From assembly GCF_027587175.1 (NCBI RefSeq), contig NZ_JAPCID010000026.1, positions 1-64,000 of the forward strand: a DNA stretch of 64,000 nt. The letters are read 5' to 3'. This DNA is from Solirubrobacter deserti. Its GTDB lineage: Bacteria; Actinomycetota; Thermoleophilia; Solirubrobacterales; Solirubrobacteraceae. This document shows positions 44-13,583 of the stretch, piece by piece. Both the position numbers and the translations under genes were made by a program. Each line of letters starts with the position of its first letter. The stretch's first letter is position 1. The notes beneath the pieces were generated by a model, which did not search any database, had not been told where the DNA came from, and worked only from the letters and a program-made list of their open reading frames with translations.

Positions 44-63
44 AAAGTGGTCTTTCTCGACGA
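44..63 (+). repeat. cassette-boundary repeat, copy 1 (sub-family A)
   Basis: Reads AAAGTGGTCTTTCTCGACGA. This is the first of 14 same-orientation copies that punctuate 1-13.5 kb. Sub-family A carries AAAGTGG before the core TCGACG. Bases 1-43 and 64-139 hold no gene I can support. Confidence 0.75.
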
Positions 64-139
64 ATTGACGCATTACCGGGACAGCTACCGAGGCGCTGAC
101 CGGAGCGTCGAACCGCTCGCCCGCGTCGTGGTGTCCTCG

Positions 140-661
140 CTACTCGGGAGGGGCCACGTCGAGAAGCCTACGTGCGCGGAAACGATCTAGCAGCGCGGGC
201 GGAATGGTCGCTTTCAACTGCGCCTCGAGTTCATGCTGCTCGTTGATGTCCATGGAGGTGTTGGCGAAGACCACGAAGTCCTTGGACGTCGGCAGCGAGC
301 TCCAGTCGTACGCGGCCAGCGCTCGCGCTACGCCACCCATGAACGCAAACCAGTCTTCGTCCATCTCCCAGGCATCGCGCAGGTCATCGGCGATGAGGGC
401 CGCTTGCTCGGGGACCGGGAGCGCTTCCCCGATGCTGTACTCGCCCGGGTTCCACAGCGTGAGGCCAATCCCCCACGGGTCCGGCTCCGCGAGCCATTCG
501 TTCCACTCGGCGGACGTGACCAGTCCCACGACCGGGATCGGGGCCCACCCCGCGCCATACGCCAACCCAAGCGCAGCGACAGGCTCGTCTGGCCAGTGGT
601 CTGCCGCCCACGCGAGCACGCGCTCTACAACGACGTCGTGGAGCTGCTCGGCGCGAGACAC
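140..661 (-). CDS. hypothetical protein in cassette 1
   Basis: I do not recognise this 173-aa protein. It is acidic and looks soluble, with many Trp and Asp residues (AWAADHWPDEP, AEWNEWLAEPDPWGIG, WEMDEDWFAFMGGVARAL); there is no signal peptide or membrane segment. The frame stays open upstream to 778, but that extension is translated from the repeat at 721-740. I therefore place the start at the GTG at 661 (VSRAEQLHDVVVERVLAW). No strong ribosome-binding site is visible. It lies alone between repeat copies 1 and 2, reading against the repeat orientation. Coding likelihood rests on the sensible amino-acid composition and the clean fit between the repeats. Confidence 0.6.
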   Translation of the reverse strand: MSRAEQLHDVVVERVLAWAADHWPDEPVAALGLAYGAGWAPIPVVGLVTSAEWNEWLAEPDPWGIGLTLWNPGEYSIGEALPVPEQAALIADDLRDAWEMDEDWFAFMGGVARALAAYDWSSLPTSKDFVVFANTSMDINEQHELEAQLKATIPPALLDRFRARRLLDVAPPE

Positions 662-720
662 GCAGCTCAACCTAACGCTGCCGTCTAACGATTCGTATCT
701 GGGTGAGCCGTCGTACGGGC

Positions 721-740
721 AAAGTGGTCTTTCTCGACGG
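721..740 (+). repeat. cassette-boundary repeat, copy 2 (sub-family A)
   Basis: Reads AAAGTGGTCTTTCTCGACGG and matches copy 1 in 19 of 20 positions. It lies upstream of the gene at 140-661 and downstream of the gene at 823-2790. Confidence 0.8.
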
Positions 741-822
741 AGACACGCCTTGCGATCTGCAGCTCGGGCTGATCTCACGAGCCGCGCGCTAGGTGTCTTC
801 GTCGAATTCGACGGCGCTTACC

Positions 823-2790
823 CTAGTCCAGGCTATTGCGGTTCAAGGAGTCGGCTAGTTGCGCAGCCGTGTCCAGAAGCGCCGCGATCTTCGGCGGCTC
901 TATCCAACCGAGGATTGTGCAGATGGCGCGGCTCGCGCGTAGCAGCGCGGCCGCGGCGACCAACAGCGCTAATGGGTCCATCTCCCGGGAATTCGCGTGC
1001 GGTCCGCCGACCATGACTGTGTCGTCGGCTGTGCGGCTGAATCTCGAGAGTTTTGCGAGGCCAGGGTGTCCGGTCGCCAACACGGCGCTTTGCGCCGTTG
1101 CCCAGTCCTCCTTGAGTCCGATAGATCGCGCGATCTCCTCATAATCCGGTGTCCAGCTGCTGCCGGGAGCGCCTGCGGCTCGAGCCCGAGCCTCGAGGCT
1201 CTCGTAGGCTCCCCCGTTCGAACTAGCGATGCGGCTCATCCAGGCGTCCACCTGTTGCAGCCCGTCGAGATGTAGGCCGGCAACCCGGTCCGCGCGGCTC
1301 TCTGGCGCTTCGCTGGCAAGCTCCGACAGGAGCAAGGCATCCCGAAAGATCGCGGTGGCTATGCCGATCGCCTCTGACGAGAAACCCTGTTTGACGAGGA
1401 GCAGTACCGCGGCGTGGCGGTGTCGACAGTGGTCATACGTGGCGAGAAGGCCGACGTTCGACCCCGCTCGTTCAAGCATTTCGCCACCTCCCAATCCCGC
1501 AGCCAGCTGGTCGACCTCGCCCGCTAGAGCAGCGAAGGGGTCTACCTTCGCGGTCGAGACGTCGACATCAGGCTGGCCTTCTGCCACCGACGCTCCGGAG
1601 GCCGCGGCACCCCAGATCTCCCAGCGTGTCGGCTGGAAGGAAATTCCGTCGGCCAGCGACGGGGTGATCGTGTCCTCGGGTTGCATGAGAAGGCGATCGG
1701 GGTCGTCTGGGTTGGCCCGGACTGACTTCAGTCGAGACCGCCAGAGCAGCCGCGGATACTCCTGGTCCGGTGCGGCGAGGTCTTCGCCAGCGCCCAGAAG
1801 TGTTCCCCACACGTAGCGCGTGAGAAAGGAGCGAAGTGGCTTGTCATAGGGCTTGCTCTTGAGCGTTTCGACCGACTTGGCATCCAGCTCACTGAGATCC
1901 AGGATGGCTGCACGCAGATAGTCAGCAGTGACGTTGACTATCGGCTCGGCAATCTCGCGAACGCGCTTGAAGTCGAGGAATGAGTGCGAGAAGCCGTTTC
2001 GGGCCTCTTGAGCCGCTTTCGCGGTCGCGTTGTCGCCGGCGAACAGAATCCGCCGTCGAACTTCCGAATCAAGGCGGTATCCCGGCTTGCCGCCCCGCGG
2101 ATCGGCTACGCCCCATTGATCGGCGAGCTCTTCTGCGGAGATGTCGCGGCGCTTGAGTTCGCGGTCACGAGCGAGCGTGGTAAGCGCTTCCATACCGATG
2201 AACAGGTGAGCCATGGCTAGCGTCTCTCGCCCCGGCATCCAGTGCGACAGGGCGAGGGCGTACTGGGCAATCGCGCGCAGGAGGCGTTCACGGCCTGGAT
2301 GCCCGTGCACCGCTTGAAGGAGCTGAACAGTCGTCGCGGCGTCAAGAATGCGGCGCGGCGAAGGCATGGTCTTCTGCGGTTCAGCCACAAAGTTCTGAAA
2401 GAAGCTTCGCTCAGCCAATGCAGGTGTCGCCTCGAATGCGATCTTCGGTTCGATGTCGCCTACCCATGCGTTCGCACTCGTCGCGATGGCGGGTAGAAAG
2501 CCAGCCGCCGCGTTTGCGTACGCGGTCACAACGTCGCTGAGCGCAGGTCCGTCAGCGACATCACCACGTACGTCAATCCACAATTCTCGGGGCACAGGGT
2601 GTTCGAATCCCTCAGGCGAATATCGCGTGCGGAAAACGATGTCGACCGGCCCCACGTCCGTTGGTACGCCGATCAGCCGCATCGGTACGACCTCATCACG
2701 AATACGAACATCACTGTCAGCAGCGAGAGCGACGATGAACCGTCGCCTGGCCGACCCGGAGTCGTCGCAGATCGGGGGAGAAGCGCTCAC
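823..2790 (-). CDS. large hypothetical protein with HEPN-like RNGFSH motif
   Basis: This 655-aa cytosolic protein has two recognisable halves. Residues about 150-300 are helical and contain a conserved-looking block (LSHWMPGRETLAMAHLFIGMEAL around 181-203) followed by RNGFSH at 264-269. That fits the R-x4-H signature of HEPN-fold proteins such as ApeA-type abortive-infection RNases. The C-terminal half (about 430-650) has a helical block, DHCRHRHAAVLLLVKQGF, reminiscent of DUF5677-like proteins. The start is GTG at 2790, with an alternative ATG 36 codons in; no clear ribosome-binding site is seen. It is the single gene of cassette 2. An RNA-cleaving or defence role is inference from one motif, and an unrelated helical protein is possible. 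Confidence 0.65.
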   Translation of the reverse strand: MSASPPICDDSGSARRRFIVALAADSDVRIRDEVVPMRLIGVPTDVGPVDIVFRTRYSPEGFEHPVPRELWIDVRGDVADGPALSDVVTAYANAAAGFLPAIATSANAWVGDIEPKIAFEATPALAERSFFQNFVAEPQKTMPSPRRILDAATTVQLLQAVHGHPGRERLLRAIAQYALALSHWMPGRETLAMAHLFIGMEALTTLARDRELKRRDISAEELADQWGVADPRGGKPGYRLDSEVRRRILFAGDNATAKAAQEARNGFSHSFLDFKRVREIAEPIVNVTADYLRAAILDLSELDAKSVETLKSKPYDKPLRSFLTRYVWGTLLGAGEDLAAPDQEYPRLLWRSRLKSVRANPDDPDRLLMQPEDTITPSLADGISFQPTRWEIWGAAASGASVAEGQPDVDVSTAKVDPFAALAGEVDQLAAGLGGGEMLERAGSNVGLLATYDHCRHRHAAVLLLVKQGFSSEAIGIATAIFRDALLLSELASEAPESRADRVAGLHLDGLQQVDAWMSRIASSNGGAYESLEARARAAGAPGSSWTPDYEEIARSIGLKEDWATAQSAVLATGHPGLAKLSRFSRTADDTVMVGGPHANSREMDPLALLVAAAALLRASRAICTILGWIEPPKIAALLDTAAQLADSLNRNSLD

Positions 2791-2990
2791 CGGAGAGATG
2801 CTGGCGCACGCAGCGGACAGGATCTGTCGCCGACGAACAACCCGCTCTACAACCTTCCAAGTCCGCCCGAAGGAGCGCTCAGTGTCATCTTGGCCGAGGG
2901 TTCGGCGGTCTGTCCGGTGGACTCGGTTGGGTCTCGGGACGGCGGCGGACTGACCGCGAAATAGCGAGTCGACGCGAGTCTGACTAGGAG

Positions 2991-3118
2991 AAGTTGTGTC
3001 GTCCGTCGCTGCCTGAGGATCGCTGGCGTGACTCGATAGGAGCTTGGCGATCGTGCCCTCACTGAGGTCTGTCCGTCGTGGTCCGTTTCGTGGTCAGCTC
3101 TTGAAGGGACGGTGGTCG
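2991..3118 (+). ncRNA. predicted bridge-RNA region of the IS110 element
   Basis: IS110-group elements are known to encode a bridge RNA in the non-coding left end, upstream of the recombinase gene. This 128-bp stretch is in that place and has no open frame. GTCCGTCG occurs twice (near 3000 and 3070), which could form part of a fold. I did not identify the target- and donor-binding loops, so this call rests on position only. The flanking 2791-2990 holds nothing else I can name. Confidence 0.35.
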
Positions 3119-4196
3119 ATGATCGTGCTCGGTGCCGACACGCATAAGCGCACGCATGCGCTGGCGGCGGTTGACGCCGGCAGCGGCGCCGTCCGCGCGC
3201 AACGGTCGATCACCGCTGACGAGCCTGGGCATCTGCAGGCGCTGCGGTGGGCGCGCGAACTCGATGACGAGCGCGTGTGGGCGATCGAGGACTGCCGTCA
3301 CGTGTCCGGTCGGCTCGAGCTCGCGCTGATCGCAGCCGGCGAGCGGGTGGTCAGGGTCGCCCCGCAGCTGATGGGCCAGTCTCGCCAGGCCGAACGTCGC
3401 CCCGGCAAGTCCGATCAGATCGACGCGCTCGCGGTCGCGCGGGCCGTGGTGCGCGAGGGCATCGACCGCTTCCCGAGTGCCTTCTTGGACGAGCGCGCGA
3501 TGGAGATCCGGCTGCTCGCCGATCACCGCAACGACTTGATCGCCGAGCGCACCCGCATCGTGAACCGGCTGCGCTGGCATCTCGTGGACCTGTGCCCGCA
3601 GTTGGAGGCCCAGGTGCCTGCTCGATGCGTGGATCACCCGGTGTGGCTGGAGAAGATCGCTCGCAGGCTTCAACGGCTGCCCGCCAGCCAAGCACGAGTA
3701 AGATCGCGCGTCAGCTCGCCGCCTCGATCCGGCAACTCACGCGCCAAGCCAACGACATCGAAGCCCAGCTGCGCGTCCTGGTGCGCGCCTATCGCCCGCG
3801 CCTGTTCGCCGAGCTCGGCTGCGGCACGTTGACGGCCGCGACGTTGATCGGGCGCACCGCCGGCGCTTTGAAACCGACGCTCGTTTCGCCCGCCAGGCCG
3901 GCACGGCGCCGATCCCGGTCTCCTCCGGCAAACGCGACCGCCACCGACTGCACCGCGGCGGCGATCGCCAACTCAATCGCGCGCTTCACACGATCGCCAT
4001 CACCCGCGCCCAGCGCGACCCCGAGACGCGCGCCTACCTAGACCGCAAGCTTGCCGAAGGCAAGACCCGCAAAGAAGCCATCCGCTGCCTCAAACGCCAC
4101 CTCGCCCGACGCTTCCACCACCTCCTACGGGAACCACCTGACGCCCCAGCCCTGATGCCGGTCACCGCACCCCCGAGAGTCGCCTGCTTGATATAG
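3119..4196 (+). pseudogene. IS110-family transposase, two frameshifts
   Basis: The reading frame begins at ATG 3119 with the RuvC-like DEDD domain: GADTHKRTH near the N-terminus, IEDC, then GKSDQIDAL. Around 3690 the homology moves to another frame (SKIARQLAASIRQLTRQ, then GTLTAATLIGRTAG). Around 3860 it moves again, to the frame carrying the transposase_20 serine domain (AGTAPIPVSSGKRDRHRL, RALHTIAITR). The stop is TAG at 4194-4196. All three pieces are collinear, so the gene was complete and has suffered two small indels. The recombinase is predicted inactive unless the shifts are sequencing errors. Confidence 0.85.
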
Positions 4197-4198
4197 GA

Positions 4199-4213
4199 GC
4201 AACTTCTCGACGG
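4199..4213 (+). repeat. cassette-boundary repeat, copy 3 (beside the IS)
   Basis: Reads GCAACTTCTCGACGG and is very close to copy 7 (AGCAACTTTTCGACGA). It continues into GTTGCGCCCATCTGC, which nearly matches the sequence after copy 13 (GTTCCGCCCATCTGCC). GCAAC and GTTGC pair across the core in this copy. Confidence 0.7.
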
Positions 4214-4366
4214 TTGCGCCCATCTGCGTGCGACGTCAGGACATCGCCCTACCGGCTTTACGTGGGGCGCCGGGCAGGTCGCTCTGGGACGATCTGCGTG
4301 CAACTGTGCATGGTCGAACCTTGAGCGCGCTGCTGCGATTGGCGGCTCGGCGGGTTGGAAGCAGCG

Positions 4367-4666
4367 ATGCTCGTCGCCGCCTGGGTCAGTACGATGCCGC
4401 CCGCAATGACCGCCGTCCAGCGCGAGAATCTCTACCGCAAGATCTTCCTCGCCGGTGGCGAGCTCGAGATAACGATCGAGGAGCTACTGGCGACCTTCGA
4501 TCGGAAGAAGCTCACCGAGAAGGCGCGGGACGAGATGTTGGAGCAGCTCACGTTCCGACGACAGATTCACGTGTCCCCGGCCCTCACCGAGGTGCAGCCC
4601 GGAGACCGCGTCAGGTTGCGGGGGCGCGGTGCGCCTCGAGTGGATACTGACTCGTCGTCCGCTTAG
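4367..4666 (+). CDS. small hypothetical protein
   Basis: I do not recognise this 99-aa protein. After a variable start it runs AVQRENLYRKIFLAGGELEI, then TIEELLATFDRKKLTEKARD, and ends with VQPGDRVRLRGRG, a basic beta-like tail. The start is uncertain: ATG 4367 follows GGAAG, and ATG 4394 and 4406 are alternatives. The charged helical middle with regular Leu spacing argues for real coding. It shares a cassette (copies 3 to 4) with the gene on the other strand at 4801-5043. Confidence 0.5.
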   Translation: MLVAAWVSTMPPAMTAVQRENLYRKIFLAGGELEITIEELLATFDRKKLTEKARDEMLEQLTFRRQIHVSPALTEVQPGDRVRLRGRGAPRVDTDSSSA

Positions 4667-4800
4667 CTGCTCACGAGTCCTGAAAGGAGCACGGGCGCTA
4701 ACGCCGCTGCGGTGCGGCGCGCATGGTCGGCGTGCGGTGCCTTCCTGGAACCTGGGGACACCCTCCGACGCTCAGATCGTCCGCCCAAGTCGGCGTCGTC

Positions 4801-5043
4801 TCACAGCCGTGAAATTCCGCGCCACCGCAAAGCAGCTCGATCGGCCAGCAACGCGTTGCTGATCAGCTCGTGAGTGAGCTCGCCGCGATCGGCAATCGCC
4901 GCGAACAGCTGACTGACCATCGTCGGCCCAGCGAGGGCGCCGTAAGCGCTCGTGTCGTCGCGGGCGTAGGTGAGCATCGAGATCAACAGCGTCCCCACGG
5001 CGAATGCCCACACCGGGCGCGTACGCGCCCTGTTCGCGAGCAT
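4801..5043 (-). CDS. small hypothetical membrane protein
   Basis: This 80-aa frame has one predicted membrane segment (VWAFAVGTLLISMLTYA, residues about 11-27). A soluble, Ala/Leu-rich tail with amphipathic helices follows (GPTMVSQLFAAIADRGELTH). It starts at ATG 5043. A different open frame continues upstream (MALISAFSKLDAREQ), so a frameshift near the start is possible. No function can be assigned. Base composition is like that of the other cassette genes. The 5044-5214 interval has nothing else recognisable. Confidence 0.4.
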   Translation of the reverse strand: MLANRARTRPVWAFAVGTLLISMLTYARDDTSAYGALAGPTMVSQLFAAIADRGELTHELISNALLADRAALRWRGISRL

Positions 5044-5214
5044 CGAGCTTGGAAAACGCGGAGATGAGAGCCATAGCCGTCGAACGATCCATCCGTCATC
5101 GTGACCGTGTGCCGGGACAGCCGCTCGGGCCGGCCGGGAATACGGTCGCGCTACATGGCCTGCATCGCCGAGACCCGGTCGTCACCGAAGAACGCCTCGG
5201 GTCCGGACTGAAAT

Positions 5215-5230
5215 AGGTGTTTGTCGACGA
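5215..5230 (+). repeat. cassette-boundary repeat, copy 4
   Basis: Reads AGGTGTTTGTCGACGA, a shortened form keeping GTTTGTCGACG, which it shares with copy 5. It ends 14 bases before the start of the Imm7-like gene. Confidence 0.6.
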
Positions 5231-5244
5231 ACTGATCACAATGG

Positions 5245-5688
5245 ATGGACGTGTTCGAGTATCACGGCTGGGCCACGATCCTGGATTCGACCGGGGAGCA
5301 GGAGTTCGACGAGGACCCTTCGCGCACCACGCTCAACGCCGTTCGCAACGCGATGGCGAACTCGGGCTTGGGAAACCGTGTCGCCCTCGATGTGCGCAAC
5401 GGCTTGTGGTTTCTCGCCATCCACGGTTTCAACAACCACCGAAATCCAGCAGTCGTGGAGCTCTTTGAGGCCGTCGCTCGCATCGCCCCGGGGTCATACG
5501 GGATCCTCTTCACCCACGATGACGAAGCGGGCCTTCGGAACTTCGTGGCGGGGCCATACGAAGCGGGCGAGCACGAGAACTGGTGGTACTGCCGCGTCAT
5601 GAAGCGCGGTCGTGTCGAGCGTCACGCCGACGCGTTGCTGTCGCCGCACGTCCCGACGGTCGAAGACGACCTCTCAAACTCCGCCTGA
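5245..5688 (+). CDS. Imm7-family immunity protein
   Basis: This 147-aa cytosolic protein opens with MDVFEYHGWATILDSTG, the hallmark start of Imm7-type immunity proteins. These protect cells from polymorphic or contact-dependent toxins. The middle (ALDVRNGLWFLAIHGFNNHR) and end (GSYGILFTHDDE, NWWYCRVMKRGRVE) also fit the family, as does the length. ATG 5245 is chosen over the overlapping ATG 5241, which is in another frame. No toxin gene is adjacent, so this is an orphan immunity gene forming a one-gene cassette just after repeat copy 4. The family assignment is from memory of its N-terminal signature. Confidence 0.7.
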   Translation: MDVFEYHGWATILDSTGEQEFDEDPSRTTLNAVRNAMANSGLGNRVALDVRNGLWFLAIHGFNNHRNPAVVELFEAVARIAPGSYGILFTHDDEAGLRNFVAGPYEAGEHENWWYCRVMKRGRVERHADALLSPHVPTVEDDLSNSA

Positions 5689-5718
5689 ACCGGTTCGGTC
5701 GCGAAGGGCCGGCCGTGC

Positions 5719-5738
5719 AAAGTGGCGTTTGTCGACGG
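5719..5738 (+). repeat. cassette-boundary repeat, copy 5 (sub-family A)
   Basis: Reads AAAGTGGCGTTTGTCGACGG. GTGC before it and GCAC after it could pair. From here to 5990 (about 250 bp) I see only a leader for the next gene. Confidence 0.75.
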
Positions 5739-5990
5739 TTCGCACCCCCTTCCCGTGCCTCGTGACGCCGCGGCCGCGTGCGTGGCGACGCGCTGGCATG
5801 CACGAGACAAGATGTGTCACACCATTTTGATGCACGCAGGCACGCCGAGCTAAGGCGCGACGATCGCGAAAACCGCCGAGCTCGTCGTCTCGAGCCGGAT
5901 TGCTCACGACGACGCGTCTACGAACGGCGCGCACACGTTTGGCCAATGGTGAACGCTCTTTGGCTCCGCAGACCGGTACGGTCCGCAGTG

Positions 5991-7907
5991 ATGAAGGCCG
6001 AGACTCGCACCGTCAAGGGCATCTTCCATGGCGAACGTCGCTTCGAGGTGCCCGTCTACCAGCGCCCGTACGTCTGGAACCGTGAGCGCCAATGGGAAGC
6101 GCTCTGGCACGACATTGAGGCGACCGCGATCCGCCTCGCGGAGGCGCGGATCGCCGGGCACGGGAAGGGCATCGATGCCGCGGTGGCCGATAAGCTGGCC
6201 GCCCCTCATTTCCTCGGCGCGCTGGTGATCGAGGACCAGCCTGTGATGACGGGTGCTGTCGACACGCGGCTCGTAGTCGACGGGCAGCAGCGGCTGACGA
6301 CGTTGCAGTTGCTGTTGCGCGGCGTTCTGGACGCGCTAGACGCCGTAAACGCGCCGAAGCCGCTGCGAGCGCAGGTCCGTAAGGCCATCCGCAACGACGA
6401 GGAGGTTGTCGGCGAGGACGAACTGCTCAAGCTTGCGCCGCGGCACGCGGAACGGCAGCAATTCGCGGCAGCGATGGATCCGGTAATACCGGCGCCGACC
6501 GCGTCTCGCTTCGCGGACGCGCGGGCCTACTTCCGTGACGACGCTGCAGAGTTCTTGGCGGACGCGGACGTGCCGGCGGACCCATACTTCGACGGTGATG
6601 CCGTTGCGGCTCGCGCATCGTTGCTGGTCGCGACGCTCCTCGGCCTCGTGAAGCTCGTCGTGATCGATCTCGAGGGCGTCGACGACGCACAGGTGATCTT
6701 CGAGGCGCTGAATGCTCGCAACACGCCGCTTTCAGCGACCGACCTAGTCAAAAACCTGCTGTTTATGCGGGCCCAGGCCCAACAGCACGATCCCCAGGTG
6801 CTCTACGACACGCTGTGGAAGCGGTTCGACGATGAGAGCGACTGGTGGCTGGAACTTGTCGGCGTCGGTCATGCACAGCGAGCTCGGCAGGATTGGTTGC
6901 TCGGCGATTGGCTGATTGCCCAGCGCGGGATGACGATCAATGTCGGTCGACTTTATGGCGAGTTCCGCACGTGGCTAGACACAAGCGGTGTCGAGCCGTT
7001 TGAGGCGCTGTCGACACTCAACCAGTACGCGGACGCGTACGAGGTGCTCAACGGGCGACGAGAGGGCGCAAGCCTGCCCGAGCAGCAGGCGTTCCTACGG
7101 ATCGAGCAACTCAACATCACCGTCGCGACACCGGTCATCTTGTGGCTCTTGGTCCAGCCTGCCGCGCGGCTGGAGCCCGACGAGCGCGAGCGCGCGATCC
7201 TCGCGATCGAGTCCTTCGTGATGCGGCGCATGGCCGTCAAATGGCAGACGCGGGCCTACGGGCCAATGTTCGTCGAGGTGCTCAAGGCCGCTCAGGCAGC
7301 AGAGACGAATCCCGGCCAGGCGGTCGTTGATGCGCTACGAGCTCAACCGCACGGCTACAGCTGGCCATCGGACGCCGACATCGTGACTGCGTTCGAGGAA
7401 GGCCGCTACTACGGAAACGGCGGGATCAACCGTGAGCGCCTTCGGATGGTGCTAGGGGCGATCGATCGTCGGCTTCAGCAGCAGGCCCTCAAGAGTGAGC
7501 CGTCGATCGTCGATTACGACGGACTGCAAATTGAGCACGTGATCCCGCAGAACTGGCGTACGCACTGGCCAGTAACTGTGCAGGAGCCAGGCGAGCGGCT
7601 GATCGCTGAGCAGGAACGGGACCGCCACGTCAACCGCATCGGCAACCTGACGCTCGCCACGAAGCATCTGAACCCGTCGATGAGCAACGATCCGTGGGCA
7701 GAAAAGCGTGCCGAGTTGCAGAAGCACAGCGTGCTGCAGCTGAACGCCGCGCTTGTGGCCGAACCAGAGTGGGACGAGCAGCGCGTGCGAGCTCGAGGCG
7801 CTTGGCTTGCTGGCCACTTCGGCAGCATCTGGCGCGGCCCCGACGACGCCATATGGGAGGGCGCCACTCCTATCCCAAAAGGCGTCGGCGACCACGGCCC
7901 AGCGTAG
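5991..7907 (+). CDS. DUF262/DUF1524 (GmrSD-like) nuclease
   Basis: The 638-aa protein has an N-terminal DUF262 domain: FEVPVYQRPYVWNRERQW at about 18-35 and LVVDGQQRLTTLQLLL with the DGQQR motif at 97-101. A DUF1524 HNH domain lies at the C-terminus: IEHVIPQNW near 513, RIGNLTL near 548, and a final NPSMSNDPWAEKR. This is the single-chain arrangement of GmrSD-type type IV restriction enzymes, in which DUF262 uses nucleotide and senses modified DNA and the HNH domain cuts. ATG 5991 begins the conserved domain; in-frame ATG 5946 would add 15 residues. It is followed after 17 bases by a zinc-ribbon gene. Anti-phage function is inferred from the family; the target modification is unknown. Confidence 0.85.
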   Translation: MKAETRTVKGIFHGERRFEVPVYQRPYVWNRERQWEALWHDIEATAIRLAEARIAGHGKGIDAAVADKLAAPHFLGALVIEDQPVMTGAVDTRLVVDGQQRLTTLQLLLRGVLDALDAVNAPKPLRAQVRKAIRNDEEVVGEDELLKLAPRHAERQQFAAAMDPVIPAPTASRFADARAYFRDDAAEFLADADVPADPYFDGDAVAARASLLVATLLGLVKLVVIDLEGVDDAQVIFEALNARNTPLSATDLVKNLLFMRAQAQQHDPQVLYDTLWKRFDDESDWWLELVGVGHAQRARQDWLLGDWLIAQRGMTINVGRLYGEFRTWLDTSGVEPFEALSTLNQYADAYEVLNGRREGASLPEQQAFLRIEQLNITVATPVILWLLVQPAARLEPDERERAILAIESFVMRRMAVKWQTRAYGPMFVEVLKAAQAAETNPGQAVVDALRAQPHGYSWPSDADIVTAFEEGRYYGNGGINRERLRMVLGAIDRRLQQQALKSEPSIVDYDGLQIEHVIPQNWRTHWPVTVQEPGERLIAEQERDRHVNRIGNLTLATKHLNPSMSNDPWAEKRAELQKHSVLQLNAALVAEPEWDEQRVRARGAWLAGHFGSIWRGPDDAIWEGATPIPKGVGDHGPA

Positions 7908-7924
7908 CCTCGAAGGAGGGCACG

Positions 7925-8059
7925 ATGACCTGCCAGATCTGCGGCGAGGTGAAACCCGTGACGAAGTTCCCAACCGTGGATTCCGCGACCGGACGCCGGG
8001 GCGGCGAATGTCGTGCATGCCGCGACGAGCGTCGTGCCCTTGCACGCGCCGGAGGGTAA
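7925..8059 (+). CDS. 44-aa zinc-ribbon protein
   Basis: A tiny protein with two Cys pairs (CQICGEVKPVTKFP and CRACRDERRALA), which should bind one zinc in a treble-clef-like knuckle. GGAGG stands six bases before ATG 7925, a good ribosome-binding site. It lies 17 bp after the nuclease gene on the same strand, so the two are probably co-transcribed and form a two-gene cassette. Similar short CxxC...CxxC proteins often accompany HNH enzymes, but a role as partner, inhibitor or regulator here is speculation. Confidence 0.65.
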   Translation: MTCQICGEVKPVTKFPTVDSATGRRGGECRACRDERRALARAGG

Positions 8060-8492
8060 GGGGACGGACGGGAGCGCCGTCGAACGTACTCAGAATCAGT
8101 TCTTGTCTCCCAGCTGACGCGGCCGGACGAGCGAGGCCGCAGTGCGGTCCTCCGCAGCGCGGACACGCGGTCGGCGGCACCCGAACGAGGACGCCCTTCC
8201 GGCCAGCCTCCGCGCTGTGCACTGGCTTGCCCTCGACAGCAGGACACTGGGCATGGGCTCACACAGCCAGTCGAGCGAACAACAGCGGCCGGTCGTTGAT
8301 CAAGGCGGCAAGGTCGGCGCCGATCTTGCGCTTGACGATGAGCCGGTTCGAGCCGCAGAGTCGCCGCTGAGCAGGTACGACCTCTCCTCAAGAGGTGCCG
8401 GCGCCCCCGAGTACCTATCGGTGGGTGGGTCGTCGCGTGGGCGCAGTGTCCGCAGGTCACGGGGCCCGGGCAGAGGGCCTCCACGGGCTGGT
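8060..8492. other. 433 bp without an intact gene; possible decayed coding DNA
   Basis: No frame here looks intact. On the minus strand scraps in different frames resemble a zinc-ribbon and basic tail (VTCGHCAHATTHPP, YLLSGDSA, then SNRLIVKRKIGADLAALIND). They could be a frameshifted recombinase-like or other small DNA-binding protein. I see no repeat copy in this interval, although the spacing of the array would allow one. Confidence 0.3.
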
Positions 8493-8791
8493 CTACTGCG
8501 AACCACGTAACCCTTTCTGTTGGCAGATCGGTAAGTCCTCCGCGTCGGCCTCGTGGATGCGACCCCGGCCCGCTACGCCCCGCCGGTTGGCGTCGTAGTG
8601 CCTGCGGTTGGTGATGGGCGGGGCCGGTTCTGAGGGAAGCGTGGCGATCTCCTCGCGAGCGAGCAGCTTCAGTCGCGTCCCGCGGTAGCTCTGGATGTAT
8701 GGCGGCTTCTGGAAAGTCGCGTCGCGGCGGCTACCATGTCGTCCAGGAGCGCCGTCTCTTCGGCGGTCAGCTTCAATTGGTCGCGCGTCAT
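8493..8791 (-). pseudogene. frameshifted small cassette protein
   Basis: ATG 8791 has an excellent ribosome-binding site (GAGGAG, nine bases upstream) and begins MTRDQLKLTAEETALLDDMV. That frame stops at 8669. From about 8730 the neighbouring frame continues in similar style (FQKPPYIQSYRGTRLKLLAR, then EIATLPSEPAPPITNRRHYD) to a stop at 8493. Joining the two gives a protein of about 98 aa. I infer a single-base indel near 8730, either a true pseudogene or a sequence error. Function unknown. Confidence 0.5.
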
Positions 8792-8940
8792 GGAGCCACT
8801 TCTCCTCGGTGTAAGGGATGCTCACGGGGAGTAGTGGCGTGGCCTCGAAGTCCGCCCTTCGAATGGGGCGCGGCAATGCGGCCGCGAGAAGCGGGCCGGC
8901 CGAGCTCCACCCGCGGCTGAGGCTGCTTCGATGCAGAGGC

Positions 8941-8959
8941 GAAGTGGTGTTCTCGACGG
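8941..8959 (+). repeat. cassette-boundary repeat, copy 6 (sub-family A)
   Basis: Reads GAAGTGGTGTTCTCGACGG. CTTCG just upstream (near 8927) can pair with its CGAAG to form a small hairpin. Confidence 0.75.
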
Positions 8960-9056
8960 TTTTAGTCCCTCCTTCGGCTCGGATCCCGCGTCGAATACGG
9001 GACCCGGAGAAGCGCCAGGCCAGGCAGCAGTGCGACCAGATCGCTCGTGGTCCTCC

Positions 9057-9593
9057 CTAACCGAAGCATGTGCCGCAACGGCGTGGCAGCGATCCCGTCT
9101 CCTCGCGGCAGTGGTGCTCGAGGACGCGCAGCGAGCTGCAGCACGACCTCGGCTTGGCCGTGCGGAGCGTGAAGTCGCTGCCGTCGAGGCCGAGATGCCA
9201 GCACTCGGCGTGGTGGAGGATGTGATCGTCGGTAACGCGGTCCCCAGGTTTGACGACATAGCCGTTCGGGTGGAGGCGGACCCAGTTCTCGTAGGCGTCG
9301 TCGTCCCCGGGCCCGAACACGAAAATCTCGGCAGTGGGCAACGGTCGAGGCTCGATCGCGGGTGGTTTCGGTGCCGGGACGACGGCCGTGATCCGATACC
9401 GGGTCGGTCGCGCGGCGGCGACCGTGACCGTTTCGCCGACGGATCGCCCAATCAGCGCTTGTGCGACGGGAGTGGCCGCGGAAATCTCGCCGGCTGAGGG
9501 ATCTGCGCGGACGATCGTCCACGTCCGCGCTTCTCCAGTGGTTTGGTTCTCCACGGAGACGGTCGCGCCCACCTGAACGACTGGAGTGCTCAT
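9057..9593 (-). CDS. GreA/GreB C-terminal-domain-like protein with Cys/His tail
   Basis: In this 178-aa protein residues about 5-65 match the FKBP-like C-terminal domain of GreA/GreB transcript-cleavage factors: VGATVSVENQTTGEARTWTI, GEISAATPVAQALIGRSVGE, then TVTVAAARPTRYRI. The N-terminal coiled coil that reaches into RNA polymerase is absent. After a Pro-rich linker comes a second region (GYVVKPGDRVTDDHILHH) and a Cys/His-rich end that could bind zinc (AECWHL, SCCSS, EHHC, RRCGTC). ATG 9593 begins the Gre-like domain. It is the sole gene between repeat copies 6 and 7. It could bind RNA polymerase without cleavage activity; this is inference. Confidence 0.6.
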   Translation of the reverse strand: MSTPVVQVGATVSVENQTTGEARTWTIVRADPSAGEISAATPVAQALIGRSVGETVTVAAARPTRYRITAVVPAPKPPAIEPRPLPTAEIFVFGPGDDDAYENWVRLHPNGYVVKPGDRVTDDHILHHAECWHLGLDGSDFTLRTAKPRSCCSSLRVLEHHCREETGSLPRRCGTCFG

Positions 9594-9674
9594 GGGGCAC
9601 GGATACCCACAACGGTGCGCCACGGTGATGACCGATAGTCGTGCAACCGCATCGGGTCCACGCCCGGCGGGAAT

Positions 9675-9690
9675 AGCAACTTTTCGACGA
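9675..9690 (+). repeat. cassette-boundary repeat, copy 7
   Basis: Reads AGCAACTTTTCGACGA (sub-family B, AGCAACTT form) and is almost identical to the copy beside the IS at 4199. Confidence 0.7.
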
Positions 9691-9724
9691 TCTGGCTCCT
9701 CTTGACGCCGTATACGTTGTTGCC

Positions 9725-9906
9725 GTGGACCACCGCAAGCGATTCGTGGCTCGCGCGGAAGCGGGTCGCGGATGGAGGATCTGGAACAAGCAGCAAAGCG
9801 CTGGTGGGGTCCCGTGCTGTCGCGTCAGCCCGACGCGCTGATCGCTGAGCTGAACGAACTGAAGCGTCCGGAGCGGCTCGCCGAGCTCCTCCGTTCGGCT
9901 TCGTAA
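9725..9906 (+). pseudogene. small GWRIWN...RWWG protein, frameshifted
   Basis: From GTG 9725 one frame reads VDHRKRFVARAEAGRGWRIW and is soon lost, stopping at 9839-9841. A second frame opens at ATG 9772 and reads AAKRWWGPVLSRQPDALIAE to a stop at 9904-9906. Small actinobacterial proteins of about 60 aa commonly read as an Arg-rich start, GGWxVxD, RRWWG and then an amphipathic Leu-rich helix. Joining the frames near 9795 rebuilds that pattern. I infer a one-base indel in this short cassette (266 bp between copies 7 and 8). The 44-aa downstream frame alone could also be a gene. Confidence 0.45.
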
Positions 9907-9939
9907 GCCTGACGCCGGCGCTCGAGGCCGAAGCCAAGA

Positions 9940-9957
9940 AGTAGCGCTCCTCGACGG
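9940..9957 (+). repeat. cassette-boundary repeat, copy 8
   Basis: Reads AGTAGCGCTCCTCGACGG, a divergent copy. Just upstream GGCTTCG (near 9897) and CGAAGCC (near 9929) form an inverted repeat. Confidence 0.55.
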
Positions 9958-9977
9958 GATGACCATCATCGCCTCGG

Positions 9978-10310
9978 TCAGGTGCCCGGGCCGCCGGGCT
10001 GGGGTGGCGGGTCCATCGGTGATCGCAGCCGAGGCACGACCGAACCTGTGCAAGCGTCGATGACCCGGCGATCGCCCAGGGGCGCTGCGAGAACGACGGT
10101 CAGAGAGTGCATGTGGCCGGCGGCGCGCGTCTGCCCGCGTGGCGCGGTGACGACGATCGCGATCTCGACGGCTTCCTGCGCTTCTTCCACCGAAACCGAG
10201 TCAAACCGGTGCGACGGGCGAGTGACGTAGTCGATTCGTAGCTGGCGATCGACGGGCTCTGCGTCGTAAGCATCGATGCGCGCTGGTACGCGAAAGCGTC
10301 CTGAGGCCAC
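9978..10310 (-). CDS. hypothetical cassette protein
   Basis: This 110-aa frame starts at GTG 10310 and reads MASGRFRVPARIDAYDAEPV. It goes on as alternating hydrophobic/charged beta-like sequence (RIDYVTRP, SVSVEEAQEAVEIAIVV, MHSLTVVLAAPLGDRR) with a Pro-rich end. I do not recognise it. Its start is only about 10 bp from repeat copy 9 and its end is 20 bp from copy 8, so it fills its cassette. The beta-rich pattern and snug fit support coding. There is no signal peptide. Confidence 0.55.
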   Translation of the reverse strand: MASGRFRVPARIDAYDAEPVDRQLRIDYVTRPSHRFDSVSVEEAQEAVEIAIVVTAPRGQTRAAGHMHSLTVVLAAPLGDRRVIDACTGSVVPRLRSPMDPPPQPGGPGT

Positions 10311-10320
10311 GTCCGCTAAG

Positions 10321-10336
10321 TATCACTTTTCGACGG
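10321..10336 (+). repeat. cassette-boundary repeat, copy 9
   Basis: Reads TATCACTTTTCGACGG (sub-family B), followed by TTTCGCTCC. Confidence 0.65.
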
Positions 10337-10431
10337 TTTCGCTCCTTTGGCGGCCGTAGCGGTCGGTCATGACGGGCATGCTCGGCCCGGCCAGACATGA
10401 CGCCCACGCCGTCCGGCTTGACCGCGGTGAG

Positions 10432-10920
10432 TCAGGCGGACGGCTGGCGAATAGCTAGCCCGGCATCGGCGAGGCGTGCGTGGATGGCTCGCAGCGCTTC
10501 CGTGGCGTGCCGGCCCCAGTGCGTGTAGAAGCTGAAGCGCCACTCCCAGGCGACGTCGTCTGGACAGGCGCCGCCGTGCAGCGCGAGCAAGCCGCGCTTC
10601 AAGTCGCGCCAGATGTCCGCGAGGTCGTCACCTAGTGGCAACAGGACCGCATCGGTTCCGCTGGGGCCCATGGGGTCGACAGTCGTCCAGTAGCGCGCCC
10701 AGTCGTCGAGCGTCGCCTGAACCGCGGCGAACCTTTCGCGCCATTGTTCGTCAACTGGGCCGTCCGGCAGTTCGGCGCTGGTCGGTTGAAGATCCGGCAT
10801 AGTCGACGCGGCTGCGATGAGGCTCGCGAGCGAGTCTGCGAGGTCGGCTGCGAACGTGTCCCGTTGCGACGTCTCCGCGCTCTCGACAAGAGCGCAGTAG
10901 CGCTCGGCTTCGTTTCGCAT
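10432..10920 (-). CDS. DUF5063-family protein
   Basis: This 162-aa soluble protein matches DUF5063 in layout. It has an N-terminal NEAERYCALVESAE, a central stretch with DDLADIWRDLKRGLLALHG, and the strongly conserved end AWEWRFSFYTHWGRHATEAL followed by RAIHARLADAG. The biochemical role of the family is unknown; members are common in actinobacteria and proteobacteria as free-standing cytosolic proteins. ATG 10920 is preferred; GTG two codons upstream is possible. It is the only gene between copies 9 and 10. Family membership is from recognition of the WEWRFSFxxHWGRHA motif. Confidence 0.8.
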   Translation of the reverse strand: MRNEAERYCALVESAETSQRDTFAADLADSLASLIAAASTMPDLQPTSAELPDGPVDEQWRERFAAVQATLDDWARYWTTVDPMGPSGTDAVLLPLGDDLADIWRDLKRGLLALHGGACPDDVAWEWRFSFYTHWGRHATEALRAIHARLADAGLAIRQPSA

Positions 10921-11002
10921 GCTCACGCGACGATTGTCGTCGATGAAGGGCTTGGACGGTGCAAACCGCTGTCACATACCTGCTCTACGCCCCGTTGACG
11001 AA

Positions 11003-11019
11003 GGCGCGCTTTTCGACGA
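11003..11019 (+). repeat. cassette-boundary repeat, copy 10
   Basis: Reads GGCGCGCTTTTCGACGA. Flanking CGAAGGCG and CGCCGTTCG form an imperfect inverted repeat around the core (about 10999-11029). Confidence 0.65.
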
Positions 11020-11129
11020 TCTCGCCGTTCGTCGGCCATGCTCGCGGCAGATGGCGAGGCTCCTGGGGCGCTCGCTCGGGATCCGGCGACCAGCTCGTTG
11101 GAAATGTTGCGCCATCAGAATCCGCGAGC

Positions 11130-11648
11130 ATGGACACGCGGCTTCCTGCAGGCACGGATTTCGCGGGGCTGGATTCCCATGAGGTCTACTTCGCGGTCTT
11201 CGACCCGCTCGACGAGCGCAGCCCCAACGGCCTGTGGGGCTTCAACGAACGCGACTTCGAACTCATGACAAAGGGCCAGCGAGCGGTCTTCAATCTGAAC
11301 TGGCTGCGTAACTACATGGAGGCCGACACAATCCTCGAATACGCCGACGAGCCGGGGCTACGTGCACACGCTCACCGGCTTGTCGCGGACGCAGAACTCG
11401 TGGGTGCGTGGCCTTTCACTGCTGTGTTGGCGGAGATTGCGCCGGTTGTCGCGCAGGAACAGGAGCTGCCGTTCGACGATTCGCTCCTTGACGAAGTCGA
11501 GCGCCTCGAAGCGACCTTCTTCGCACTCGAAGACGACCACGGCGCGTTGTGGCACTTCCTGGCCGACTACATCCGTCGTACGCCCGAGGAATTCATCCAA
11601 TCCGAAGCAGCGACTCTGTGGAGACGCCCAGCCGACGGTGCCCGCTGA
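11130..11648 (+). CDS. hypothetical cassette protein
   Basis: This 172-aa acidic cytosolic protein starts at ATG 11130 (MDTRLPAGTDFAGLDSHEVY). It is rich in aromatic and acidic residues (AVFDPLDERSPNGLWGFNER, ALEDDHGALWHFLADYIRRT). The frame is open upstream to 10959 but would read through repeat copy 10, so the later start is chosen. I do not recognise a family. The pattern is helical. It ends 15 bp before repeat copy 11. The acidic, Trp-rich style recalls immunity or antitoxin-like cassette proteins, but nothing specific supports that. Confidence 0.6.
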   Translation: MDTRLPAGTDFAGLDSHEVYFAVFDPLDERSPNGLWGFNERDFELMTKGQRAVFNLNWLRNYMEADTILEYADEPGLRAHAHRLVADAELVGAWPFTAVLAEIAPVVAQEQELPFDDSLLDEVERLEATFFALEDDHGALWHFLADYIRRTPEEFIQSEAATLWRRPADGAR

Positions 11649-11663
11649 GATCGAGCCAGCGAT

Positions 11664-11679
11664 TAGAGCTTTTCGACGA
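11664..11679 (+). repeat. cassette-boundary repeat, copy 11
   Basis: Reads TAGAGCTTTTCGACGA (sub-family B). Confidence 0.65.
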
Positions 11680-11719
11680 TTCGGTCATCCCCCGCTCGTC
11701 GACGGCTGGGCAACCAGGT

Positions 11720-12301
11720 TCAGCACCATTCGCTCCGGCGCACGTCGCGTAGGTAGCGAGCGACCGCATCGCAGGCCGGCCCGGAATACACGAGCGGTGG
11801 CGGCTGGCGGCGGTCCAGGCGGATCGGAAGCACGAGCCCGCGCACAGCCGCGCGGCCTCGCGGTGGGATAATGACTCGCCGGAAATCGTACGGCCCGTGG
11901 TAAATGATCAACGCGCGATTCCCGGTGGGTTCGGCCAAGGTAAGCGTCATCTGGCGTTCGAAGCCGAGCGCCGGGCATCCATGTCCGGGAGGAAGGATCT
12001 GGTCGCGCATCTGCGCCCATACGGTGACTGTCCGGGTGGTTCGCCGCGCGCGGAAGCGGTCGAACTTGGAACAGACGCCTTCCGTCACGATGACCTCGAA
12101 GCGGCGCTGACCACGCGCGCGCTCGATTGAACCGACGACAGCGATTCCAAAGCCGGCAGCCGAGAACCGCGACGCGTACGTCGGCTTGTCGTCGGGTCGG
12201 GCGATCACCACGACACCGAGAATCCCGGCCGCCACCAAGACCAGCAGCGACACGGCGATCCACCTGCGACCGACGCTTGGCCTAGACATCGCTTTGCGCA
12301 T
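11720..12301 (-). CDS. membrane-anchored hypothetical protein
   Basis: In this 193-aa protein, after a basic start (MRKAMSRPSVGRRW), residues about 15-34 form one membrane segment (IAVSLLVLVAAGILGVVVIA). An exported domain of about 155 aa follows, with beta-like sequence (FGIAVVGSIERARGQRRFEV, MTLTLAEPTGNRALIIYHG) and four Cys that could form disulfides. ATG 12289 is an alternative start. No family is recognised. It is alone in the cassette between copies 11 and 12 and reads against the repeats. An N-terminally anchored extracytoplasmic protein is the safest description. Confidence 0.6.
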   Translation of the reverse strand: MRKAMSRPSVGRRWIAVSLLVLVAAGILGVVVIARPDDKPTYASRFSAAGFGIAVVGSIERARGQRRFEVIVTEGVCSKFDRFRARRTTRTVTVWAQMRDQILPPGHGCPALGFERQMTLTLAEPTGNRALIIYHGPYDFRRVIIPPRGRAAVRGLVLPIRLDRRQPPPLVYSGPACDAVARYLRDVRRSEWC

Positions 12302-12400
12302 CGGCTGGCACCACCATCCTGGGAAACGTAGCTGCGACACTCTTCGCTGGGTGCCGCACGGTCCGACGGCGCGTTAGCTCGGCCTCATACCAGTCATGCG

Positions 12401-12418
12401 AGTGGTCTTTCTCGACGG
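12401..12418 (+). repeat. cassette-boundary repeat, copy 12 (sub-family A)
   Basis: Reads AGTGGTCTTTCTCGACGG and is identical to copy 2 over 18 bases although 11.7 kb away. Confidence 0.8.
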
Positions 12419-12519
12419 AAAGGTTCTTCGGGGTAGCTGCGATCCGCTTCGTCGCCGCTCGTTGCCGGTGGCGGCTCCTTGCGTCGGCGCTCGCTCAGAA
12501 CGGCAAGTAGTTCTGGCGG

Positions 12520-13008
12520 GTGACGCGGGGACCCTACGCTCGGCTTGTGGACGATGGGCACCCGGGACCGCGTCAGAACTACGCTTTGCAAGTCCTTTTG
12601 ACCGAGATCGATGGCATCGAGGTGTGGCTTGAGCGTGTAACGCTGCGGAGCGACGCCGTCGCCGTCGCGCTACGCGCCCAGCAGAATGACGCGACCCGAA
12701 CGCTGGACTCGCGCTACGAGGCCGTCTTCGAGGCGTGGGCGGAGATGGCGCAAAAAGATCGACAGCGCGGTCGCAAGCTATCGGGTCAGCCACCAGCGCA
12801 GCCAGGCGAGTGGCTTGCGGAGATTCCGCTTCATCTCGGGGACGACGCCGGAACCAAGTACCGCCCGGTTAAACGTCAGGCCGCTGGGACCGGAACTGAG
12901 TGGGAGGCGACGTGGGTCTTCTCGCCGGCTCCAGCGGAGAGAGCTACGGCGATATCGATCTGGGTCGGCGACCCGGACGACCGCTCGCGCGTGCACGTGA
13001 CGCTGTAG
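12520..13008 (+). CDS. hypothetical cassette protein
   Basis: This 162-aa protein starts with GTG 12520 (VTRGPYARLVDDGHPGPRQN) and is beta-rich at first (YALQVLLTEIDGIEVWLERV). It then has a charged helical middle (RYEAVFEAWAEMAQKDRQRG) and an end with TATSIWV-like strands and DDRSRVHVTL. There is no signal peptide, metal motif or known catalytic signature. It occupies the cassette between copies 12 and 13 in the repeat direction. Coding is supported by composition and length; function unknown. Confidence 0.55.
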   Translation: MTRGPYARLVDDGHPGPRQNYALQVLLTEIDGIEVWLERVTLRSDAVAVALRAQQNDATRTLDSRYEAVFEAWAEMAQKDRQRGRKLSGQPPAQPGEWLAEIPLHLGDDAGTKYRPVKRQAAGTGTEWEATWVFSPAPAERATAISIWVGDPDDRSRVHVTL

Positions 13009-13095
13009 ACATCGACGCGGTAACTACCCCTGATGCGGCGATCTCGGACCGGGCCATGACGAGGTAAGGCTGCGACGCCATCAGCAGACACAGAA

Positions 13096-13112
13096 GCGGT
13101 GCGTTTCGACGG
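13096..13112 (+). repeat. cassette-boundary repeat, copy 13
   Basis: Reads GCGGTGCGTTTCGACGG, followed by TTCCGCCCATCTGCC, which nearly repeats the sequence after copy 3. Confidence 0.6.
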
Positions 13113-13160
13113 TTCCGCCCATCTGCCAGCCGCCTGAATCGTGACCCTGCCTGCGCGGGG

Positions 13161-13460
13161 TCACGCACAGGCCGCGGCCGTCGTCGACTCGACGTCCGGC
13201 GGCGTGGCGAGGTCGCCGTGCGTCGGCAAGCCTTTCTCGCGCGCGTACACGTCCCAGTTCACGGCGCGCTCGATCGCTTCGTCGGCGCTCATCGGGACCA
13301 CGCCGCAATGAGTTGGGCTACAGGCGGACAACCCGCCGCCAAGGACGAGCGAGATGCCCTCGAGCGTGTCGTCGGCGTGATCGACTGAGACGCAGAGCAT
13401 CGGGTGGTAGCGGCAATCCTCGTAGAAGTCACCGCGCGCTATCCGGTTGGACTTGCTCAT
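13161..13460 (-). CDS. small Cys/His hypothetical protein (SKSNRI...GDFYEDC type)
   Basis: This 99-aa protein starts at ATG 13460 with MSKSNRIARGDFYEDCRYHP. It continues LCVSVDHADDTLEGISLVLG, GGLSACSPTHCGVVPMSADE and AIERAVNWDVY. The DFYEDCxYHP, GISLxxG and CSxxHCGV blocks are familiar from short uncharacterised proteins found in many bacteria; Cys and His could bind a metal. The frame is open upstream but would read through repeat copy 14, so the internal ATG is used. It is the last cassette gene before the array ends. Confidence 0.65.
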   Translation of the reverse strand: MSKSNRIARGDFYEDCRYHPMLCVSVDHADDTLEGISLVLGGGLSACSPTHCGVVPMSADEAIERAVNWDVYAREKGLPTHGDLATPPDVESTTAAACA

Positions 13461-13490
13461 CCCGGGGACCGTACCTCGGCGCGCACGGAT

Positions 13491-13507
13491 GGAGCGCTTC
13501 TCGACGA
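13491..13507 (+). repeat. cassette-boundary repeat, copy 14 (last)
   Basis: Reads GGAGCGCTTCTCGACGA. CGGAT before and ATCCG after make a five-base inverted repeat enclosing the core. No further copy is seen to the right. Confidence 0.65.
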
Positions 13508-13583
13508 ATCCGCGCATTCCACGGCCGCCGCAAAAGCCGACGAGAGGTGCCTTAGCCCGCCGCAACGGCGGCTAAGTTGCTGG

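Follow-up and report, generated by a model that had tools for sequence, protein, structure and literature searches.

Probable mobile gene-cassette arrays at a short inverted-repeat site in Solirubrobacter, with a distinct edge site and a candidate tyrosine recombinase

The 64,000-nucleotide stretch of Solirubrobacter deserti DNA analysed here (the window; G000:C200:9-64008) carries fourteen copies of a short repeat, which we call S, that divide positions 44-13519 into cassettes. We consider it likely that these copies belong to a mobile gene-cassette array maintained by tyrosine site-specific recombination at S; the evidence throughout is drawn from sequence. Because the window begins 8 bp from the end of its 947-kb contig, it carries the 3' part of a longer array, whose start lies beyond the contig end. 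We compare it with the other genomes of the genus, labelled G000 (the window's own) to G005, where G003 is S. phytolaccae. All are draft assemblies, and that of G000 is fragmented.

The initial annotation described fourteen same-orientation copies of a short core sequence. That core is present, but it is only a part of the full unit, a 32-bp imperfect inverted repeat whose most regular form is AAAGTAGCGCTTYTCGACGATTYCGCTACTTT. Two inverted outer arms of about 11 bp each surround an asymmetric conserved centre, TCGACG, and an alignment of the copies has almost no information content outside the 32 bp. The count and orientation hold: a 32-bp position weight matrix (PWM; columns -13 to +18 around TCGACG, trained on these same arrays) finds 13 matches in the window, a fourteenth copy, at 8941, is shifted by one base, and all lie on the plus strand within 44-13519. 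The likeness noted earlier between copies 2 (721) and 12 (12399) is also real, since both contain AGTGGTCTTTCTCGACGG. With at most one mismatch, the short core CTTTTCGACGR occurs 8 times in the window, always on the plus strand, against 1.8 expected, a count reached in 0 of 100 shuffles; its longer form occurs 4 times, against 0 expected. When the matrix is applied to about 165 kb of G000 (the window and seven other stretches), 45 sites exceed 18 bits, compared with 0.1 expected under a Markov control. The strong S sites within one array all share their orientation. The lower GC content reported for the region is likewise found, at 64-67% in the array versus about 70-74% across most of the remaining window. 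A scan of the window against Rfam returned nothing but a tRNA.

S arrays are present in five of the six Solirubrobacter genomes, having been read outside G000 in G001, G003, G004 and G005; the longest (G004:C120) extends over about 43 kb, with 27 sites that score more than 16 bits, and G002 has hardly any S sites. A 19-base pattern, allowed up to two mismatches, gives 5-41 matches per genome in the six genus genomes and stays near the level of a reversed control in 55 genomes of other genera or families. The sole genuine array match in the genome-wide pattern scan was that of S. phytolaccae KCTC 29190, on a contig with the same three sites as one of G003; the other matches were singles, and those inspected lay in coding-like DNA. 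Viral contigs gave a single weak match.

The cassettes appear to move as units bounded by the cores of S. The Imm7 cassette of the window (5224-5737) recurs alone in the C114 array of G003 at 80.7% identity, and in both genomes its ends fall at -3 and +2 bp relative to the core centre. G003 also has the window cassette 9971-10342, and the intervening cassettes differ. In the cross-species matches used, homology ends at the core in both loci in 6 of 32 cases, whereas 2,000 random shifts of the sites average 0.03 such cases and never exceed 3. Within G000, the contig pairs C200/C393, C69/C399 and C93/C424 have exactly 71 bp in common, a length that appears to be the k-mer of the assembler, before they diverge at an S core; C200 and C393 do so directly after the core of S site 1. 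The 5,182-bp contig C211 (L012) runs exactly from S core to S core and connects the pair C93 and C424 with the pair C69 and C399. Such branch points are expected whether S recombines precisely or a block running from core to core is duplicated. The shared cassettes, the homology ending at cores and the branch points show, at the level of sequence, gain and loss of cassettes one by one at the sites and exact core-to-core exchange and duplication. These results agree with the initial proposal of a mobile gene-cassette array, in that single cassettes are common to species while their neighbours differ, with ends at repeat cores. That annotation had named as the case against itself relatives carrying the same genes in the same order; we see the opposite, lone shared cassettes among different neighbours.

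The features of the array are as follows, with coordinates and strand in the window and PWM scores for the sites.

44-75, plus: S site 1, 38.6 bits
140-655, minus: cassette 1 gene, hypothetical; start codon uncertain, reading frame open to 778; no Pfam or PADLOC match
721-752, plus: S site 2, 31.8 bits
823-2790, minus: cassette 2 gene, 655-amino-acid hypothetical protein; no Pfam match
2869-2879, plus: left half of S site 3, split by IS110
2880-4204, plus: IS110-family element inside S site 3; PF01548 match
4205-4225, plus: right half of S site 3; halves joined score 35.9 bits
4355-4666, plus: possible cassette gene, hypothetical; no Pfam match
5211-5242, plus: S site 4, 27.6 bits
5245-5688, plus: Imm7 immunity-protein cassette gene; PF15585, E=4.9e-26
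5719-5750, plus: S site 5, 29.4 bits
5778-7907, plus: GmrSD-type restriction gene, 709 amino acids; PF03235, PF07510 and PADLOC restriction-type models
8941-8972, plus: S site 6, offset by one base
9057-9623, minus: cassette gene with GreA/GreB C-terminal domain; PF01272, E=8.8e-16
9671-9702, plus: S site 7, 28.6 bits
9938-9969, plus: S site 8, 25.9 bits
9978-10310, minus: small hypothetical gene, cassette common to S. phytolaccae (G003); 9971-10342 at 83.9% identity
10317-10348, plus: S site 9, 38.1 bits
10432-10926, minus: DUF5063 gene; PF16702, E=8e-25
11000-11031, plus: S site 10, 29.6 bits
11100-11648, plus: hypothetical gene, start uncertain; no Pfam match
11660-11691, plus: S site 11, 28.5 bits
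11720-12340, minus: hypothetical gene; no Pfam match
12399-12430, plus: S site 12, 27.6 bits
12520-13008, plus: hypothetical gene; no Pfam match
13093-13124, plus: S site 13, 32.2 bits
13161-13565, minus: hypothetical gene; reading frame spans the last site, true start probably lower; no Pfam match
13488-13519, plus: S site 14, 32.4 bits, last in the window; 3' end of the array, chromosomal DNA beyond

Many intervals do hold one small gene, as first described, but not all: 5730-8951 is 3.2 kb long and contains the 709-amino-acid GmrSD gene, and 9690-9938 is probably empty. The insertion sequence reported next to a repeat is indeed at one, although it lies inside a split S site rather than abutting it. 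An IS110 relative at 88.6% identity occupies the same position in another S site, on contig C2 of G000. As a side observation, insertions of this family at one position of S (window 2880-4204; G000:C2, L014) look as if S were a programmed target.

According to Pfam and PADLOC model searches, the cargo of the window comprises Imm7, a GmrSD restriction protein, a GreA/GreB-domain protein, DUF5063 and unknowns. Across the arrays, 136 proteins represent 115 Pfam families, nearly all of them found once, and PADLOC models for a cyclase, a kinase and other defence types each match single array proteins. One further cassette, the first of an array in G001 (L042:5109-7937), appears by eye to encode a TIR-like protein and a nucleotidyltransferase resembling the cyclase of cyclic-oligonucleotide-based antiphage signalling systems (CBASS); a PADLOC cyclase model matched one array protein. 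With approximate gene starts and an approximate set of open reading frames (ORFs), 116 of 266 predicted ORFs are co-oriented with the S sites. Since the genes lie on either strand, the cassettes probably carry their own promoters, unlike typical integron cassettes.

The arrays open with a second type of site, E, which reads GTCGAAAATAGCGTCTATCCACANAANCGCTAATTTCGATCGTCGTCGAAC and combines S-type arms with the core TCCACA. Every array that could be read to its 5' end has E at that edge; in the window's array the corresponding position lies off the contig. In 12 of 12 arrays E is upstream of the S sites and in the same orientation: seven of these sites, taken from array edges, served to derive the E model, and five were found later through that model or by arm similarity. 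In G004 and G005, a stretch of 92% identity begins exactly at the E core, and the DNA to its left is unrelated chromosomal sequence. Set against attI, E lies at the 5' array edge and, in two species, within 42 bp of a recombinase gene, although the enzyme is not IntI; by analogy, E may take attI's positional role.

Three further observations concern E and its surroundings. The core of E, TNTCCACA, looks like a DnaA box, possibly by coincidence. A conserved repeat of about 160-340 bp, dispersed through the genus, often lies between a chromosomal gene and the array edge (copies at L074:7303-7645, L082:927-1271, L042:4808-4964, L044:4906-5160, L073:6057-6457, L009:1307-1517 and L086:7402-7641); this conserved DNA upstream of E also occurs away from arrays. 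The DNA upstream of several E sites was considered as a gene or a structured RNA and set aside, being apparently non-coding, with no Rfam match and a fold z-score of -1.2.

The best candidate for the array enzyme is a tyrosine recombinase of 295 amino acids, whose gene is intact in G005 (contig C35). An E-like site follows its stop codon after 21 bp, and an S array after about 4 kb; scanning 3.5 Mb of strand gave no match other than this E-like site and the known E sites. In G005 the arms of S are of a variant type, GTGCT, which the E-like site by the recombinase resembles most. G001 has a broken copy, 80% identical to that of G005, which ends 42 bp before E. The catalytic residues of the G005 protein are R145, K172, H242-R245, the H of the LGH motif and Y278. 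Its predicted structure has a mean predicted local distance difference test score (pLDDT) of 85, with a predicted template modelling score (pTM) of only 0.63, and its best structural and sequence matches are XerA (5hxy), a XerC-like protein (4a8e) and XerD (1a0p). The protein nonetheless falls far under the curated XerC and XerD cut-offs (131 of 335 bits and 112 of 330), and it reaches 62 of 265 bits, in split pieces, against the IntI model. Relatives in other genera are 37-75% identical; because in the two that were checked, G141 (75%) and G063 (43%), the next gene is a Tn3-family transposase, the recombinase probably descends from a Tn3 tyrosine resolvase. In non-genus genomes with such relatives, the S pattern shows no clear excess over control. 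Tn3 families are absent from the 25 commonest Pfam families of the 136 array proteins and none is apparent near the G005 gene, although terminal repeats were not searched for. By position, no serine recombinase lies near the arrays.

For the chemistry, the circular intermediates, the identity of the enzyme and the direction of insertion, we propose the following. S would be a short duplex-type core site, made of its two inverted arms of about 11 bp and the asymmetric core TCGACG. Recombination between two S sites in direct orientation would excise a circular cassette with a single gene or a few, on either strand; such a circle would be inserted by recombining with an S site. E would be a distinct full site that opens arrays, as a positional counterpart of attI. 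The enzyme would be the dedicated recombinase of about 295 amino acids, derived from a Tn3 resolvase, with its gene immediately upstream of E in some species; the remaining arrays, that of the window among them, would be served in trans or be enzyme-less relics.

Several results weigh against this proposal. No copy of the 295-amino-acid recombinase was found in three array-bearing genomes, G000, G003 and G004, and for this reason we regard its role as the array enzyme as an even call. Conversely, G002 has the gene yet almost no S sites. The features specific to E include its right half, which lies inside the array, so that E may be the end of an element rather than a point of insertion. The cores of E and S differ, and a classical tyrosine recombinase would not readily join them. 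Finally, the G000 assembly has about 5% contamination, and this, together with its fragmentation, means that mixed strains could explain some of the branch points, although the differences still fall at S cores.

The main rival reading, which we judge unlikely, is that the host XerC and XerD act on S, and that the array is a chromosomal relative of the dif modules of Acinetobacter. Of the tyrosine recombinases, only XerC- and XerD-like proteins recur in all six genus genomes, and the central hexamer of the chromosomal dif site (ATGCTCGCTAA TCGACG TTATGTGAACC, one copy in each) is the S core in four of the six. Under the S matrix, however, dif reaches only -5.8 to 6.1 bits, the XerD arm TTATGTGAA is not in S, and the arms of S are mirror-symmetric whereas those of dif are not. 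The dif core is TCAACG in G003 and G002, yet the S sites of G003 keep TCGACG. Xer proteins and dif are expected in other genera too, and those genera show no S arrays. The dif sites, located here in all six genomes (L208-L213), are recorded in their own right.

About equally improbable, in our estimation, is a reading in which the enzyme is another, unrecognised recombinase, or one borne on a plasmid or phage absent from the assemblies, so that most chromosomal arrays are relics. No array-linked recombinase is seen in three array-bearing genomes, no recombinase family recurs among the 136 array proteins, and integrons have comparable enzyme-less clusters, the clusters of attC sites lacking integron-integrases (CALINs; PMC9024848). 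Such a reading can hardly explain why the 295-amino-acid gene lies directly behind E in two species.

We give still less credence to a 237-amino-acid tyrosine recombinase without an N-terminal domain as the enzyme. Its gene is intact in a cassette inside one G001 array (L042:9395-10108), with decayed copies in arrays of G001, G004 and G005. But members of this group are present in 41 of the 120 family genomes, chiefly in genera without S sites; copies outside arrays have no S sites nearby, a motif search beside the gene in other genera made no arrays evident, and G000 has no close copy. More likely, this recombinase is a multi-copy, often decayed mobile gene that is itself cargo.

We consider it very unlikely that S is a promoter, a terminator, a motif of an encoded peptide or a product of chance. 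The sequence does look like codons for EVALFDD, and lone matches turn up in coding-like DNA of unrelated bacteria. Across 160 sites, however, no reading frame is preferred, the strand of the genes varies with respect to S (the 116 of 266 ORFs given above), cassette ends coincide with cores, and the sharing of cassettes from core to core already contradicts these readings.

Integrons are regarded as the bacterial system for stockpiling gene cassettes, and are almost absent in Actinobacteria. If recombination at S is as we propose, it would be a second such system, with an unrelated site and another recombinase lineage, and cassette arrays would have arisen more than once. It would also explain how Solirubrobacter gathers many rare genes, among them immunity, restriction, cyclase and kinase genes and unknown families. 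The arrays also offer a catalogue of uncharacterised defence-like genes. With the sites defined and a candidate enzyme in hand, the proposal is directly testable. We found no description of such arrays in the open-access papers searched.

Among known systems, integrons and the dif modules of Acinetobacter stand nearest. In structure and sequence, the candidate enzyme is matched best by XerA, XerD and XerH recombinases, but it falls far under the curated cut-offs for XerC and XerD. Tn3-family transposons with a tyrosine resolvase, of the TnpI/internal recombination site (IRS) type, resemble the arrays in that the candidate is homologous to recombinases linked to the Tn3 transposase TnpA; they differ in that no Tn3 transposase was seen at the arrays, where the recombinase gene sits behind E. 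The dif (pdif) modules of Acinetobacter, which XerC and XerD move, are alike in having short duplex core sites around accessory genes. As for the core, the S hexamer is that of chromosomal dif in four of the six Solirubrobacter genomes, and dif has TCAACG in the other two. As with S, insertion sequences target pdif sites (PMC10132070). Unlike pdif sites, however, S does not have XerC/XerD arms, the S sites of an array all point one way, and S arrays are chromosomal, with up to about 27 sites and a special edge site.

The tests made here exclude an integron in the literal sense, on the grounds that attC boxes and IntI are lacking and that genes lie on both strands. Compared with attC (RYYYAAC ... 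GTTRRRY, 55-150 bp, foldable), conservation in S covers only 32 bp and the GTT triplet is not invariant, its place being taken by A or G and then A or T; this comparison was made without a dedicated attC covariance model. S has neither R'/R'' boxes nor a long foldable stem, and the genes lie about equally on both strands. As for the IntI-type recombinase for which the initial annotation advised a search, the genome has no match to TIGR02249 above its curated cut-off, and complete integrons were not found in Actinobacteria by IntegronFinder 2.0 (PMC9024848). The initial annotation held that, if the repeats were not attC sites, the array would be a new cassette-exchange system; the failure of the attC and IntI features, together with the sharing of cassettes, bears this out. 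As tested, S arrays lack the sites and enzymes that define integrons and dif modules, and behave as arrays of cassettes. We therefore give roughly balanced credence to the idea that they are a counterpart of integrons of independent origin, in which a tyrosine recombinase derived from a Tn3 resolvase works with E as the platform and S as the cassette site to stockpile and rearrange accessory and defence genes, in bacteria where complete integrons have not been found. The likenesses to integrons extend to long arrays, very diverse small-gene cassettes, sites in the same orientation, a distinct site at the 5' edge and arrays without an enzyme; and elements of the IS110 family insert into the attC sites of integrons, as they do into S.

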